A DNA stretch of 64,000 nucleotides from positions 62,001 to 126,000 of the forward strand of contig NZ_ANAM01000003.1 in NCBI RefSeq assembly GCF_000330705.1, in the 5' to 3' direction. The notes beneath the pieces are model-generated. The model made no database searches. It was not told the DNA's origin and saw only the letters and a list, made by a program, of their open reading frames with translations. The position numbers were made by a program, and so were the translations under genes. The stretch comes from Salinicoccus carnicancri Crm. Its GTDB lineage: Bacteria > Bacillota > Bacilli > Staphylococcales > Salinicoccaceae. Positions 29,894 through 37,295 of the stretch are shown here, one piece after another (within the stretch, counting starts at the first letter, position 1; every line of letters begins with the position of its first letter).

Positions 29894-32263
29894 TTAATGG
29901 ATGAAGTTATGTGAAGAAACTTCGTAGGCATCGATGGTCCTCATCGTTTTGTTGCCCGGGCCGCCGCTCCAGTTCATTTCAGAAACTAGGATCGAACCGT
30001 CGGAATTGATCTTCTCAACTACAGCTACGTGACCTGAGCCCCAAGCGCCGTTAGTCCATGCATTGGACTGGACGATGGCACCGACAGAAGGGGAGTTGTT
30101 GACATTAAGTCCCTGGCTTCTCGCTGCACTAGCCCAGTTGGAAGCATCACCCCACTGATTGCTGACAGGTTTGCCCATTTGCTGGCGGCGTTCGTATACA
30201 TACCAAGTGCAGTCCCCGTCGAGGTACCAGTTCTCACCGTATGAAGCAGGTGACGGTGCCTGAGCTTCCTCTTCAGCCTCTTCCTCGGCCGCTGCCTCTT
30301 CCTCAGCCTGACGCTGTGCCTCGGCTTCTTCCGCTGCGCGTTGCTCGGCTGCTTCCTGCTCAGCCTGGCGCTGCGCTTCCGCTTCTTCCGCCGCGCGTTG
30401 TTCGGCCGCTTCCTGCTCAGCCTGGCGCTGCGCTTCGGCTTCTTCCGCTGCGCGTTGCTCGGCTGCTTCCTGCTCAGCCTGGCGCTGCGCTTCGGCTTCT
30501 TCCGCTGCGCGTTGCTCGGCTGCTTCCTGCTCAGCCTGACGCTGTGCCTCGGCTTCTTCCGCTGCGCGTTGTTCGGCTGCTTCCTGCTCAGCCTGACGCT
30601 GTGCTTCCGCTTCTTCCGCCGCGCGTTGTTCGGCCGCTTCCTGCTCAGCCTGACGCTGTGCCTCGGCTTCTTCCGCTTCACGTTGCTCGGCTGCTTCCTG
30701 CTCAGCCTGACGCTGTGCTTCGGCTTCTTCCGCTTCACGTTGCTCAGCGGCTTCCTGTTCCGCCTGACGCTGTGCCTCGGCTTCTTCCGCCGCGCGTTGT
30801 TCGGCCGCTTCCTGTTCCGCCTTTTCCTGAGCTGCGATTTCCTCTTCAGTCGGTTCTTCTTCTACTGGTGGGGCCGCCTCTTCTTCGGTTGTCTCCTCAG
30901 TCACCGCTTCAGCCGTTTCTTCCTCGGCCGGTTCAGTTTCTTCAGTAGTCTCTTCTTCGACAGCCTCTTCTGTAGCTTCTTCTTCGGCCGCTTGTTGCTC
31001 AGCTTCAAGTTGAGCGGCTTCCTCGGCGGCCTGGCGTTCAGCTTCAGCCTGTTCCTCAGCTTCCTGCTGTGCAGCGGCTTTCTCTTCGGCAGCCCTTTGT
31101 GCTTCCGCTTCCTCGGCTGCAGCCTGTTCTTCTGCTGCACGTTCTTCTTCAGCCTGTTCTTCCGCCTCAGCATCAGTGTCCTCTTCAGCCGGTGCTTCTT
31201 CTTCGGTTGTCTCCTCAGTCACCGCTTCAGCCGTTTCTTCCTCGGCCGGTTCAGTTTCCTCAGCAGTCTCTTCTTCGACAGCTTCTTCTGTGGATTCCTC
31301 TTCAGCCGCTTGTTGTTCAGCTTCAAGTTGAGCGGCTTCCTCGGCGGCCTGGCGTTCAGCCTCAGCCTGTTCCTCAGCCTCCTGCTGTGCAGCGGCTTCC
31401 TCTTCGGCAGCTCTTTGCGCTTCCGCTTCCTCTGCTTCCGCCTGTTCTTCCGCCTCAGCATCAGTGTCCTCTTCAACCGGAGCTTCCGTTTCCTGTTCGA
31501 CAACCGCATCAGGATTAACATTCAGTTCCTGACCCGGGAAGATGAGATGATCTGTGATGCCATTCAGGCTCATCAGCGTACGGTAGCTCATGCCGAACTC
31601 GCTCGCCACGCGGCCGATGGTATCGCCCGGTTTGACTGTATATGTGTCGGCGTCTGTATCAACTGCCGGAGTCTCTTCGGCTTCAACTTCCTCGCTGGCA
31701 TCAGCCTCAGGTTCAGCTTCCTCTGCGGGCTCGGCTTCAGGCTGTTCAGTTTCGACGGGTTCTTCGGCAGGCTCGACTTCAACAGCCGGTTCAGCCGGAA
31801 CCCCGGATGCCGGTTCTTCTTCAACTTCAGTATCAGCTGCAGGTTCAAGCGTCTGAGCAGGTGTCTTCACCTCAGGTACTGATGTCTGTTCTTCAGAACT
31901 TTCACCGATGGTAAGTTCCTGGTTCACCAAAATGAGATCAGTAGTCAGATTGTTCCAACCCTTCAATTCATCAACTGTAACATTGTTCTTCAAAGCAATG
32001 CCCCATAGGGTGTCACCGGACTTTACCTTATATGTAATAACTTCCTTCTCTTCCTCAAGTTCGAGCGTCTGATTCACTAAAATAACATCTGAAGACAGGT
32101 TGTTGTATTGCTTCAGCTGGTCCACCGTCAGATTGTTGTCGTTACCGATCTTCCAGAGGGAATCCCCCGGCTGGACCGTGTAGCTTTTCGCAGATGCGTC
32201 GTCGGATAACCCATACGCTGAAATTGCTGCTGTCGCTGTGAGTGCCGTAACTAATTTTTTCAT
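29894..32263 (-). CDS. Secreted LysM3-CHAP cell wall hydrolase with long repeat linker
   Basis: 789 residues. Signal peptide ~1-25 (ending ASA). LysM peptidoglycan-binding domains lie near residues 27-70, 76-119 and 208-252 (SYTVQPGDSLWKI, TYKVKSGDTLWGI, TYTVKPGDTIGRV). A Glu/Ala/Gln-rich linker of about 400 residues includes a ~95-residue block present twice and nine 19-residue AEQEAAEQR-type repeats. The last ~115 residues are a CHAP amidase/endopeptidase with Cys in DGDCTWYVYERR, His in GSGHVAVVE and the closing MNWSGG/NFIH text, as in SsaA/Sle1-type staphylococcal autolysins. Expected role: cutting peptidoglycan during growth or separation. The linker looks like a long alpha-helix that could span the wall and capsule. 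Confidence 0.9.
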   Translation of the reverse strand: MKKLVTALTATAAISAYGLSDDASAKSYTVQPGDSLWKIGNDNNLTVDQLKQYNNLSSDVILVNQTLELEEEKEVITYKVKSGDTLWGIALKNNVTVDELKGWNNLTTDLILVNQELTIGESSEEQTSVPEVKTPAQTLEPAADTEVEEEPASGVPAEPAVEVEPAEEPVETEQPEAEPAEEAEPEADASEEVEAEETPAVDTDADTYTVKPGDTIGRVASEFGMSYRTLMSLNGITDHLIFPGQELNVNPDAVVEQETEAPVEEDTDAEAEEQAEAEEAEAQRAAEEEAAAQQEAEEQAEAERQAAEEAAQLEAEQQAAEEESTEEAVEEETAEETEPAEEETAEAVTEETTEEEAPAEEDTDAEAEEQAEEERAAEEQAAAEEAEAQRAAEEKAAAQQEAEEQAEAERQAAEEAAQLEAEQQAAEEEATEEAVEEETTEETEPAEEETAEAVTEETTEEEAAPPVEEEPTEEEIAAQEKAEQEAAEQRAAEEAEAQRQAEQEAAEQREAEEAEAQRQAEQEAAEQREAEEAEAQRQAEQEAAEQRAAEEAEAQRQAEQEAAEQRAAEEAEAQRQAEQEAAEQRAAEEAEAQRQAEQEAAEQRAAEEAEAQRQAEQEAAEQRAAEEAEAQRQAEQEAAEQRAAEEAEAQRQAEEEAAAEEEAEEEAQAPSPASYGENWYLDGDCTWYVYERRQQMGKPVSNQWGDASNWASAARSQGLNVNNSPSVGAIVQSNAWTNGAWGSGHVAVVEKINSDGSILVSEMNWSGGPGNKTMRTIDAYEVSSHNFIH

Positions 32264-32582: not shown

Positions 32583-32923
32583 TGGATTTTACAGAACGTT
32601 ATGTCTAACAGAGATCTTCGACAGAGCCGGAGTTCAAAAAGTTGCAGGATGATCCGTTGGTCGTCCGAAAACAGGAACTCCGCGCGCAACTGATTGCACT
32701 GAGACTCAGCCTGGACCTTACTCAAAAAGAGTTTGCAGACCTGACAGGGGTCCAGCAGTCACTGGTCTCCCGTTTGGAGAACGGCAGCCACAACATCATC
32801 ATAGAACGGCTTCAGGAAATATTGGTAAGGAGCAACACAGGTGCCAGATTGAAGAAGAAAAGGATTGAAATGACTGAATATAATTTTAAAAAGGGGAGTT
32901 GTAAGAATGAGGATTGGAAATGA
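32583..32923 (+). pseudogene. Decayed XRE-family HTH regulator
   Basis: ATG 32583 follows a plausible AGGCAGG site but reads MDFTERYV and then stops. A different frame continues EIFDRA, and the frame from about 32609 gives EPEFKKLQDDPLVVRKQELRAQL and the clear HTH core LDLTQKEFADLTGVQQSLVSRLENGSHN. Frame changes in the first 40 codons plus an abnormal basic tail indicate a broken gene. The HTH domain itself is intact and could still be made from the TTG at 32642 if a ribosome site exists; none is evident. It precedes an antitoxin-like pseudogene, suggesting a lost toxin-antitoxin or regulator pair. Confidence 0.6.
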
Positions 32924-33207
32924 AAGGTCGATGTATGTTTCTGATTTTGAACGTACTTCGATGAATGCATTTGACAAAGCCCCGGAGAGTGGAGATGCTG
33001 TCTTCATCATGGATGGGCAGGAAAGCAGAGGGGTCGTCCTGACAAAGGAGAAGTACGAATCTCTGCAAAGCGAAATCGAAGGTCTGTATGGAATCCATAG
33101 TCAAAGAACGCCTGGCGAATGATGATCGGGAGGCTATCCCCGTAGCCGATGTCATAGGACATGATTTGAAAGATGTCGAAATGGATGAAAACGATGGTTC
33201 GGAGTAA
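32907..33207 (+). pseudogene. Frameshifted Phd/YefM-type antitoxin
   Basis: The first frame from ATG 32907 reads MYVSDFERTSMNAFDKAPESG...VFIMDGQESRGVVLTKEKYESLQSEIEGL, a Phd-like antitoxin start. It then loses frame at about 33085. The correct continuation is in another frame from 33088: ESIVKERLANDDREAIPVADVIGHDL to a stop at 33207. One frameshift therefore separates two halves of a normal ~95-residue antitoxin. It overlaps the end of the decayed HTH gene. No toxin gene follows; a strong terminator does. Confidence 0.65.
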
Positions 33208-33257
33208 TACAGAGGCCCTGGCGGCAGTTTTTATCTGCCGCCAGGGCCTCTGTATTA
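33205..33257 (+). terminator. Very long terminator hairpin
   Basis: A perfect 23-bp inverted repeat (33205-33227 with 33235-33257), loop TTTTTAT, overlapping the antitoxin stop and followed by T-rich sequence. It also lies just after the hicB stop on the minus strand, so it may serve both directions. Confidence 0.85.
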
Positions 33258-33264
33258 CTTTAAA

Positions 33265-33645
33265 TTATTTAATTGCTTTATGAGATTCAAGCGATTGCGC
33301 CACTAATAGGTTAATCGCTTGGTTTTTTGAAACGCCTTCTTCCTTCATGTATTTCTCGATATCCTCATTTATAGAGGTTGGAATCCTGTATGTGATTTTC
33401 ACAGGCTTCTGTTCTTCATAACTTTTTGGGAAAGGGATATCAAATTCATTTTCCAGCATTTTTTCAAACCAAATTTCTTTGGCTATATTTAAATCGGCAA
33501 TCGATTCTTCGATTGTATCTCCTACTCCTTCTAGTCCCTTTAATTCTTCAAAATAGGCAACAAAATATTCAGAAGCATCAAAGTCCTGTTTAGGTACAAC
33601 ACTTAATTTATAGTTCATTTTCATATAATCATTTACTGTTCTCAT
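33265..33645 (-). CDS. hicB: HicB antitoxin with C-terminal DNA-binding domain
   Basis: 126 residues. The N-terminal ~65 are the HicB partial RNase-H fold (FVAYFEELKGLEGVGDTIEESIADLNIAKEIW). The C-terminus (ITYRIPTSINEDIEKYMKEEGVSKNQAINLLVAQSL) is a ribbon-helix-helix DNA-binding domain. It should bind and block HicA and repress the operon. GAGGAAGTG precedes ATG 33645. It overlaps hicA by 17 bp, so the two are translationally coupled. Low GC matches the adjacent ATPase gene and suggests joint acquisition. Confidence 0.88.
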   Translation of the reverse strand: MRTVNDYMKMNYKLSVVPKQDFDASEYFVAYFEELKGLEGVGDTIEESIADLNIAKEIWFEKMLENEFDIPFPKSYEEQKPVKITYRIPTSINEDIEKYMKEEGVSKNQAINLLVAQSLESHKAIK

Positions 33646-33898
33646 GATTAGTCACTTCCTCAATATCATTGATTAACGTTTTTACAATGTGGTAGCGCAT
33701 GGGGCGAGTAAAGTTTACAGTTCTTTGAGGAATGGCAATAGGTGATAACTCGTTGTGGAAGTATACTTGATGACCACCTTTACCTTTCTTACTATCAAGT
33801 TTAAATCCATACATCCTTAAAGCAGATTTGAAGTCATGTTCGCTCACATTTTTAGGATTGTTTTTAATTTTTCTGTACAACTTCTCTTTACGACTCAA
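33629..33898 (-). CDS. hicA: HicA mRNA interferase toxin
   Basis: 89 residues. The start KEKLYRKIKNNPKNVSEHDFKSALRMYGF and the strand KKGKGGHQVYFHNE carry the catalytic GxH; IAIPQRTVNFTRPMRYHIVKTL completes the dsRBD-like fold. HicA cleaves mRNA and tmRNA to stop translation. The start is TTG with GGTGGTGG upstream. First gene of the hicAB operon, divergent from the RloC-like ATPase gene; the ~185-bp shared region is AT-rich. Confidence 0.85.
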   Translation of the reverse strand: MSRKEKLYRKIKNNPKNVSEHDFKSALRMYGFKLDSKKGKGGHQVYFHNELSPIAIPQRTVNFTRPMRYHIVKTLINDIEEVTNHENSK

Positions 33899-34084
33899 TA
33901 TGCCACCACCTACAGTGTCTTTTAATTATTGTATAATACCTTTTGTAATATGTAAATTGGTTAGCTTGTTTACAACGAAGTTCAAAATTAATTAGTAATT
34001 AAGATAATCTATTATTTGGCAATTAATGATAAAATAAACATAGTATTCAAAATAATATAAATGCTAACGGGGGTTATAATTATT

Positions 34085-36208
34085 ATGATAGATAAAGTTA
34101 ATAATATATCTAATAAATCTTTTAAAGATTTCACAGGTCCATCTGAAAGTTTTAACGAAAAGAATCTTATTTTTGGATATAACGGTAGAGGGAAAAGTTC
34201 GTTGGCTAAAGGTATAATAGAAGAAGGTTTTAAAGTTTCAAGTATAGCAGATAGCCAAGCACGATTATTTGATAAAGATTACATAAAAAAGAATCTGTAT
34301 TTAGAAGATAATGAAAAAATCAGGGGTGTAGTAGCAAACTTTGGAGAAAAAACTATAGATGCAGAAGAAAAAATCAATGAATTAATAGAAATGAAATATG
34401 ATACCTCAGTGTTGGTGTCTAAAAATAGTGAATTAAAAGATGAAATTAGAAGTTTGATAGATGAAATTCACAACCGAAGAAAAGGGAATACAAATATAAC
34501 AAGAAAAAATTCTTCATATACATTAGATCAGTTAATAGATAGTTATGAAAATGATTTAAAAAAAGCATCGAAAATAGAAGGAAATGAAGAAGCTCTTATA
34601 GAAATAAAAGGAGATAATAGTTTAGAAAGAGAAAAGAAAGAATTAACTGCAATTGAAATTGAAAAATTAAATGTTGAAGGACTAATGCCTAAGTTGGAAA
34701 ATATTAATAATATATTCAAGAAGGAATTTGACGACATAGTAATTCCTTCTTCAGAAATAATAGAATGGTTAAACAAAGGAGTAGTTATTCACAACGAAGA
34801 CGAGGAGTGTAAGTTTTGTGGTAATCCATTAGATTTGACAGCTATTAAGAGGAAAATAGATTTATATAATATTAATGAAAAGCAGAAATCTATTATAGCA
34901 TTAAAAGAATTTAAAGAAGACCTTACTTACTTTATAAATACTGTCCAAAATTTGATTGAAAATAAAACTAAACTAGAATTATTTCTTCACCTAGAGGATA
35001 AATTTGAAATTTTGAAAAGTAAAAACTATCTGCTCAAAGAAAGCATTGTATCGATTGATGAAAAAATTAAAGATATACATTTTTGTGAAACTTTCCCCAT
35101 AGACGAAGTTAAAAATAGTTTAACCATAATTAAATCAACACGCGAAGATATAAGTAAAATGAAAAAGGAAGTAATTGACGGTTTTGAAATGAAAATTAGA
35201 AATCAAGAACAATTGGTTAAGGGAGCTATCGCTTTAGAGATAGATAACAATCAAGTTATTCAAGAAAAAATAAAGTCTTTTAGGTTAAAAGAACAAGAAA
35301 TAAAAAGTAAAATGGATGAAAACGATGGTATAGATACAGAAATACAAAATTATGAGGAAGAAAAGTCGGATATCACAGATTTTGCTATCCATCTTAATCA
35401 TGTTTTAGAAGATATAAATGTAGCTTTAAGGTTGGAACTGGACGAATCTAAAAAGAACTACATATTGAAACATGCTTATACAGATGAGTTTTTAGTTGTG
35501 GATGATATAAGCGAAGGGGAAAAAAACCTATTGGCATTATTGTTCTATTACTTTGATCTATACTACGATGATAATCAAGAGGAGTTGAAGAGAGAGATAA
35601 AATTAATAGTTATTGACGATCCAGTTTCAAGTATGGACGAGCAAAATAGATTTTATGTGATGGAATTAATGAAAAACATACTTGATGAAGCCGAGGTTCA
35701 GATATTTATTATGACACATGTATGGAATGACTTTTGTGATCTTGCTTTTGGAAAAGAAAAAAAGCATGATTATAAATTTTTTGAAGTATTTAAAAATATC
35801 AATGGTGAAAGTTTGATCAGAAGTTTAAAAATACACGATAAGCCATATAAAAAACTGTTTAAAGAAATTTATTTTCTTTCAGAAAAAACTCGAGATGAAA
35901 TCTTAAGCGATTGTGAAGTTTACCATTTGCCTAATAGTATGAGAAGAGTTTTAGAGGAATTTTTATCATTTAAATCACCTAATGGTATAACTCCTACAAA
36001 ACAAAAACAAAAGGCTATTGAAAATATATTTAAAATAACATCAAATACCCAGAAAACAAAACTGGGTCAGCTATTAACGCTTTGTAACGTTATGTCGCAC
36101 AGTACTCGTCATAATCCCGAAGAGATATGGAAGTCTGCCAAGTTTTTAATGAATCAAATAAAGGAAATTGATCACTGCCATTATTTAGCTATGAGGGGCA
36201 CAAACTAA
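34085..36208 (+). CDS. RloC-like AAA ATPase with zinc-hook, probable defence nuclease
   Basis: 707 residues of the AAA_13 group. Walker A is GYNGRGKSS near residue 33. A long coiled coil (~110-430) is interrupted by CKFC near residue 241, the zinc-hook CxxC seen in RloC and Rad50. The ABC signature ISEGEKN is near 475 and Walker B IVIDDPVSSMDEQ near 508. The C-terminal ~120 residues have RRVLEEF near 618 and NVMSHS near 668, resembling the Arg-Glu-His set of PrrC/RloC anticodon nucleases. Known RloC cuts tRNA anticodons after phage DNA damage. No restriction genes are adjacent. The ATG at 34085 has GGGGG 12 bases upstream. AT-rich, likely acquired. Confidence 0.75.
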   Translation: MIDKVNNISNKSFKDFTGPSESFNEKNLIFGYNGRGKSSLAKGIIEEGFKVSSIADSQARLFDKDYIKKNLYLEDNEKIRGVVANFGEKTIDAEEKINELIEMKYDTSVLVSKNSELKDEIRSLIDEIHNRRKGNTNITRKNSSYTLDQLIDSYENDLKKASKIEGNEEALIEIKGDNSLEREKKELTAIEIEKLNVEGLMPKLENINNIFKKEFDDIVIPSSEIIEWLNKGVVIHNEDEECKFCGNPLDLTAIKRKIDLYNINEKQKSIIALKEFKEDLTYFINTVQNLIENKTKLELFLHLEDKFEILKSKNYLLKESIVSIDEKIKDIHFCETFPIDEVKNSLTIIKSTREDISKMKKEVIDGFEMKIRNQEQLVKGAIALEIDNNQVIQEKIKSFRLKEQEIKSKMDENDGIDTEIQNYEEEKSDITDFAIHLNHVLEDINVALRLELDESKKNYILKHAYTDEFLVVDDISEGEKNLLALLFYYFDLYYDDNQEELKREIKLIVIDDPVSSMDEQNRFYVMELMKNILDEAEVQIFIMTHVWNDFCDLAFGKEKKHDYKFFEVFKNINGESLIRSLKIHDKPYKKLFKEIYFLSEKTRDEILSDCEVYHLPNSMRRVLEEFLSFKSPNGITPTKQKQKAIENIFKITSNTQKTKLGQLLTLCNVMSHSTRHNPEEIWKSAKFLMNQIKEIDHCHYLAMRGTN

Positions 36209-36361: not shown

Positions 36362-37295
36362 CTATATCAATTTCTTCTTCGTAAACTTGTTCCGCAGCCA
36401 CCTGACAGCGAGCATGATGCCCATGAGGATGCCGAGATAGCCGAGCAGCGGATAGACGAGGTTCACAAGGTCGACGAAGCCGACCAGGCTCAGTATATAC
36501 CCCGCGACAAGCGCCACTACGAGTGCGACTTTGTACTTGCGGCTGTACGGCACCCAGAACCGGCTGAGGAACGGGTACAGCATGCCGACTGCGGTATTGT
36601 AGATGATCAGCAGCATGACGAGCGTCAGCACGAAATGCAGCACGGGATGGATCTCATATGCAAGCATCAGTGTCGGCAGGTCTGCCGTATTCGTCTTGTC
36701 GAACTTGGATACGAGTCCGGCATTCATGAAGAGCATCAGTACGAGCAGGATGATGCCGCCGTACATGCCGCCGCGGCGCGCGACTTTGTGCGTGGACTGT
36801 GCACCGACAATGGACAGTATGCTGAATGCCATCGCGATCACGATGCCGCTGTATGTGATGGCCTCGAGCCACCATATGCCGGTCGGTGTCTTGCTCAGAT
36901 CGGCAATTTCGTTGATTTCACTGAAAGAGACCGTCGGCGTGAAAAAGCTGTACACTGCGATGATCGCCACAATCAGGATCAGGAACGGTGTGACGAATCC
37001 GAGTGCCGACAGGATCTTGCTGAAGCCGAGCGTCAGTGTGATCATCACTGCAATCATGACGACCAGAGAGCCGAGCCATGCCGGCACACCGAAACTCTGC
37101 TCAAGTGCCGAACTTCGCCACCTGCCGGCCCAGAAACATGATGACGAGCGCCGACAGCAGCACCGCCCAGTAGCTCATCGTGCCAAAGTTGCTGAAAAAC
37201 TGCAGTATTTCCTGGCCCGTCGAGAAGCCCGCGCCGAGAACCACCCCGACATAGGCAAAACCGATTTTGATGGATTCCTGTTGTCCTTTACTCAA
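36362..37295 (-). pseudogene. Broken YkvI-type membrane transporter
   Basis: Two minus-strand frames belong to one gene. From 37295: IKIGFAYVGVVLGAGFSTGQEILQFFSNFG and a second helix ending GRQVAKFGT, then a stop at 37101. From about 37120 another frame reads ALEQSFGVPAWLGSLVVMIAVMITLTLGFSKIL and continues to 36362 with further helices. The first part matches the start of YkvI-like (LeuT-fold, amino-acid-transporter-related) proteins. Between the parts about 60 residues expected in the family are missing and the frame changes, indicating an internal deletion. The downstream frame could be translated but would lack the first helices needed for substrate binding. Confidence 0.72.

Follow-up and report, generated by a model that had tools for sequence, protein, structure and literature searches.

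RloC is a bacterial protein able to halt the translation of its own cell by cutting tRNA when the cell is under attack. In Salinicoccus carnicancri Crm, an AAA_13 ATPase gene stands divergently beside a hicAB pair, and the question raised by this locus is whether the gene encodes such a protein and whether it forms, as a preliminary description of the DNA had it, a distinct subtype within a compact defence island. The locus lies in a stretch of 64,000 nucleotides (contig NZ_ANAM01000003.1, positions 62,001 to 126,000), referred to here as the window. Residue numbers follow the 715-aa form of the protein, which starts at 34061, and the gene carries the following features.

34085..36208, plus strand: RloC-like AAA_13 gene, 707 aa from ATG, intact
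34175..34198, plus strand: Walker A G-YNGRGKS, residues 39-46 (N41, G44 and K45 invariant in the 53 homologs)
34808..34819, plus strand: CxxC (CKFC, residues 250-253), a zinc-hook motif between two coiled-coil stretches, with predicted helices on either side
35510..35524, plus strand: ABC signature SEGEK, residues 484-488 (S484 and G486 in 53/53)
35603..35623, plus strand: Walker B LIVIDDP, residues 515-521 (D519 and D520 in 53/53)
35717..35719, plus strand: H553, the switch/linchpin histidine (53/53)
35843..36196, plus strand: C-terminal helical (HEPN-like) nuclease domain, about residues 595-712, predicted from AlphaFold2 and structural matches
35942..35956, plus strand: R628-x3-E632, first two residues of the predicted catalytic triad (R628 in 52/53; E632 in 50/53, the other 3 with Asp), aligned with PrrC RNVLE
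36095..36100, plus strand: S679-H680, with the predicted catalytic histidine of the triad (S679 in 48/53, H680 in 47/53), aligned with PrrC NLSSH

The longest open reading frame, 34061-36208 on the plus strand, is intact and encodes 715 aa. The ATG at 34085, preceded by a GGGGG ribosome-binding-like run 10 nt on its 5′ side, is likely the true start and would give 707 aa. The Pfam AAA_13 family spans residues 21-684 (E 1.4e-51). The Walker motifs, the ABC signature, the CxxC within the coiled coil and the Arg-Glu...His set of the preliminary description are thus all present and are conserved across 53 homologs. The triad residues had been recognized correctly, but their numbers (R618/E622/H669) were 10-11 too low, the positions being R628/E632/H680.

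The 53 homologs are 16-34% identical to the RloC-like protein (the closest 33-34%), and both cysteines, C250 and C253, are kept in 53/53. The triad has the spacing R628-x3-E632-x47-H680, with S679 directly before the histidine, and the clade of the RloC-like protein has CNxxSH at the active-site helix. Further near-invariant positions are N625 (52/53), H707 (51/53) and Y596 (51/53), of which H707 and N625 lie outside the published triad and are residues suited to mutagenesis. In shuffled sequences, the pattern R-x3-E-x36-52-H arises in 14% of the C-terminal domains (1.3% when the histidine must follow a serine), and 6% of the whole proteins contain CxxC. The bare triad pattern is weak by this chance test, yet it is taken as real because it is conserved in the 53 homologs. 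The histidine equivalent to H680 is missing in six homologs (L111, L091, L065, L049, L079, L048), all of which keep the CxxC; judging by their sequences, they are possibly a group with altered activity.

Homology to PrrC is established computationally through a PrrC that was found independently in a class-mate genome, where its gene (398 aa) lies directly 3′ of an hsdS-like gene. In hhalign, the family profile and this protein align over the span between the signature and the C-terminus (probability 97.2%, E 3.6e-11), and the register places RRVLE on PrrC RNVLE and CNVMSH on PrrC INLSSH. Restricted to the C-terminal part, the profile reached 0.9% against this one PrrC sequence, which is not significant. 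The signature, Walker B, the H553 region and the C-terminal triad are common to both proteins, whereas PrrC is about 340-416 aa long without coiled coil or CxxC, and the protein here has 715 aa with CxxC. In PADLOC, several PDC-S06 models match the RloC-like protein as the best in the library (E 6.6e-39) and the PrrC model matches too; the homologs are matched in 53/53 and 50/53 cases, respectively. PDC-S06 is a catalogue label under which we found no published mechanism. It is listed among unpublished PADLOC candidates, to whose genes DefenseFinder gives a named system (PMC11811056). Single-sequence scans of genome contigs and viral contigs gave no close homolog. The sole match in a phage record, from a human-feces phage (L031, 23%), adjoins DNA methyltransferase and restriction endonuclease genes.

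In the AlphaFold2 model of the full-length protein, built on the 53-row alignment (pLDDT 85, pTM 0.50), the ABC head is split, the coiled coil is long and carries the CxxC between its helices, and the C-terminal domain is helical. The predicted head matches Rad50/SMC structures (Z 14.5). Such a Rad50-like head and hook would also fit a Rad50/SbcC-like DNA-repair ATPase devoid of nuclease function, but this reading is very improbable given the conserved triad and the HEPN-like C-terminal domain, both missing in Rad50/SbcC (PMC2610378), and the sporadic accessory distribution of the gene.

The preliminary description had held that a C-terminal domain with no nuclease-like fold would speak against a nuclease, and the prediction turned out otherwise. 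Folded alone in AlphaFold2 (pLDDT 89.7, pTM 0.85), the domain matches mainly HEPN structures, namely Las1 (Z 8.2), the HEPN toxin 8xdj (Z 7.7) and AbiA (Z 7.3), followed by Csm6 (Z 6.7) and AbiV (Z 5.1). These scores are modest (best Z 8.2), and helical bundles generally score well. Foldseek placed HEPN toxins at the top with E 0.3-1 and gave no match at E < 0.001, and the BFVD fold search gave no significant match for the domain. Sequence searches of the PDB found Rad50/AriA-type ATPase parts only, the C-terminal domain having no significant match, and no PrrC or RloC structure was among the matches of the structure searches. The predicted fold is nevertheless read as HEPN-like, because several HEPN families agree, the triad is present and the nuclease domains of PrrC/RloC have been assigned to HEPN (PMC3710099). 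The Rx4-6H motif occurs in the majority of HEPN domains, not in all (PMC3710099); here its arginine is not at the canonical place, where T673/C675 stand, and the R628/E632/H680 triad is found instead. The predicted C-terminal fold is thus common to HEPN RNases such as Las1, the AbiA HEPN domain, Csm6 and HEPN-MNT toxins, whereas the protein here fuses the domain to a Rad50-like ATPase.

The kinship to RloC is judged by its published defining features and by the PrrC homology. RloC of Geobacillus kaustophilus and Acinetobacter baylyi (Davidov and Kaufmann 2008, PMC2610378; PMC3874168) has an ABC ATPase split by a CxxC coiled coil, and the same domain order is computed here: the ATPase motifs (Walker A, signature, Walker B, H switch) are present, and the CxxC lies in a coiled-coil insert splitting the ATPase, a zinc hook being suggested by the motif and by the predicted model. 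Also common is the C-terminal R-x3-E-x(36-52)-S-H, as the published RloC triad window is R-x3-E-x36-52-H with Ser often before His (PMC2610378). The distance from the CxxC to the triad is 378 residues here vs 404 in GkaRloC by the published residue numbers. RloC genes are, moreover, mobile and commonly outside restriction-modification (R-M) loci, type I/III linkage having been reported for only 8/73 of them, and the published size range is 658-897 aa (PMC2610378). The RloC/PrrC-like ATPase-nuclease architecture claimed at the outset is accordingly borne out by the AAA_13 match, the zinc-hook motif, the triad and the PrrC profile alignment. The protein is not shorter than a typical RloC, since 715 aa (or 707) lies inside the published range. 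Its position outside any restriction locus is correct for the window, where no R-M family is among the families listed, but it does not distinguish the gene from other RloC. Because both features are the published norm, neither size nor location marks a subtype, and the proposed distinct subtype is not supported on these grounds. What is well supported is an intact, ordinary-sized, divergent RloC-family member of a kind already known, which adds to a family with few tested members one from a genome without an HSDR_N-type type I enzyme.

The relatives of the gene show a different genomic setting. In a tree of 92 sequences (one method, FastTree local supports), the window protein (P0001), L032 and L033 form one group (support 1.0), and the wider group adds L034, L027, L028 and L002-L005 (support 0.996). 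The L033 gene is flanked by hsdM and hsdS, an Eco57I/ResIII R-M gene adjoins L032, and hsdR-hsdM-hsdS directly follows L034 as well as L027 and L028, which are plasmid copies; L135 is near an hsdRMS set. The L003-L005 genes are directly 3′ of an rlmH-like gene, with R-M genes nearby in two. Because three type I proteins served as queries in flanks of up to 6 kb, this linkage is a lower bound. In three genomes of the same taxonomic order (L135, L136, L137), the RloC-like gene is directly 3′ of an rlmH-like gene, with R-M genes near two; the rlmH-like gene is presumably the known SCC attachment gene and insertion site.

The Salinicoccus genome itself (99.98% complete) has no HSDR_N match and a single weak N6_Mtase match, a 299-aa ORF; these two family searches define the absence of R-M, and R-M types without these domains would escape them. 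Since most clade members are in R-M loci and the genome lacks HSDR_N, the window copy is an exception in its clade and, on sequence evidence, an orphaned member of a largely R-M-linked group. A PrrC-type guard, silenced by an R-M complex and freed when a phage inhibits it, would agree with this clade (L033, L032, L034, L027, L028, L135), and the window copy would then be an escapee or have its partner in trans. PrrC genes, however, belong to type I R-M loci and this gene does not, the genome has neither HSDR_N nor more than the weak N6_Mtase match, and PrrC has neither the CxxC nor the coiled coil, both of them RloC traits; a guard role is improbable here. It is a tentative and rather unlikely suggestion that P0001, L032 and L033 form a sub-branch, with a CNxxSH helix and a longer spacing between E and H, that arose from relatives embedded in R-M loci, and that the window copy is perhaps a recent escape from R-M control and a self-sufficient tRNase with its own trigger. 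If true, this would be a natural test of how such nucleases become independent of restriction enzymes. As the clade is mostly in R-M loci, a comparison of an embedded with an orphan member could reveal if an R-M partner is necessary for RloC.

Taken as a whole, the locus is best explained by an acquired, intact RloC-family ATPase-nuclease that probably cuts tRNA and aborts phage growth, with hicAB as an unrelated neighbor. In the mechanism proposed, the Rad50-like ABC ATPase with its coiled-coil/CxxC insert would hold the C-terminal HEPN-type ribonuclease in check until an internal trigger releases it. As in characterized RloC, for which activation by DNA breaks is reported (PMC3874168), the ATPase/hook would sense broken or linear DNA as this trigger. 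Since the genome is without an HSDR_N-type subunit, such a trigger is favored over release from a type I restriction complex. The released nuclease would then, by analogy with RloC, cut the anticodon loop of tRNA, so that translation stops and phage growth is aborted at the cost of the cell. The RNase activity, the tRNA substrate and the role in phage defence are inferred by analogy with the tested relatives (PMC2610378, PMC3874168), among which triad and zinc-hook mutants of RloC have been studied (PMC2610378); hook mutants of GkaRloC are reported to be hyper-active. An abortive-infection ATPase of this kind could also cut another substrate (mRNA, rRNA or another tRNA site), because the HEPN fold is common and the specificity could differ. 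HEPN domains cut diverse RNAs (PMC3710099), and the C-terminal domain is divergent among the homologs (14-40% identity); R-x3-E...SH is, on the other hand, the signature of the anticodon nucleases PrrC and RloC, and it lines up with that of PrrC, so that a different substrate is possible but not the expected one.

The genes beside the anticodon-nuclease candidate are arranged as follows.

33629..33898, minus strand: hicA-like toxin gene, TTG start, divergent from the AAA_13 gene; Pfam HicA 14 bits, cut-off 27
33265..33645, minus strand: hicB-like antitoxin gene, overlapping the hicA end by 17 nt; HicB 22.3 bits, below the Pfam cut-off
33203..33259, no strand assigned: 25-nt perfect inverted repeat with a 7-nt loop, terminator-like, between a toxin-antitoxin relic and hicB

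The divergence of the AAA_13 gene (plus strand) from hicAB (minus strand) was described correctly. The HicB ORF is similar to proteins annotated as HicB antitoxins (35%, E 1e-11), and a HicB of this kind follows 7/7 of the HicA homologs retrieved from other genomes; the pair is therefore considered real despite the sub-cut-off Pfam scores. The two genes and the AAA_13 gene are adjacent, divergent and similarly low in GC within one stretch, as would be expected of one functional defence unit. Among 200 relatives, however, a HicA homolog occurs in 12 others and the AAA_13 gene in 5 others, with both in none, and hicAB of this kind is absent from all AAA_13 homolog loci examined, which leaves a joint unit scarcely credible. 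Since hicAB is found without the AAA_13 gene in 12 other relatives, it is a separate, independently traveling module, and it is probably outside the mechanism of the AAA_13 protein. The surroundings are mostly surface-polysaccharide genes, with housekeeping genes among them. A defence island was rejected in view of these neighbors and of the separate distribution of hicAB and AAA_13. A PADLOC scan of 44 window ORFs matched PDC-S06 by the RloC-like gene only, and the mad3, mad8 and HTH_VI models match one ORF each.

GC is about 26-33% across hicAB and the RloC-like gene, and 28-35% for the insert, vs 52-56% for most flanking genes, and the RloC-like gene is absent from the 11/11 congeners searched. 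By these computed measures, the gene was horizontally acquired, as part of a foreign low-GC insert. Two near relatives share the same flanks: G010 has a YefM-like antitoxin (Pfam 22.5 bits, below cut-off) and then a small RelE-like ORF with no Pfam match, and G006 has an antitoxin tail and a hicB relic. As these two and the window carry different toxin-antitoxin content or relics, the position is read as a site of toxin-antitoxin turnover. The window relic, at 32907-33206, is a Phd/YefM-like antitoxin with an apparent frameshift near 33085 relative to the intact homolog in L023 (9062-9373), and the window lacks the RelE-like ORF that adjoins the antitoxin in L023. One stretch of 20 nt, AAATGGATGAAAACGATGGT (reads MDENDG), is identical in the relic (33179-33198) and in the AAA_13 gene (35310-35329), and chance is an unlikely source. 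On the other side, at 36362-37295, a membrane-protein gene is apparently broken by a deletion of ~136 bp; it is intact in L023 (356 aa) and L024 (368 aa). At 29894-32263 lies a gene for a LysM-CHAP wall protein, whose long Glu/Ala-rich repeat region varies in length and sequence among relatives.
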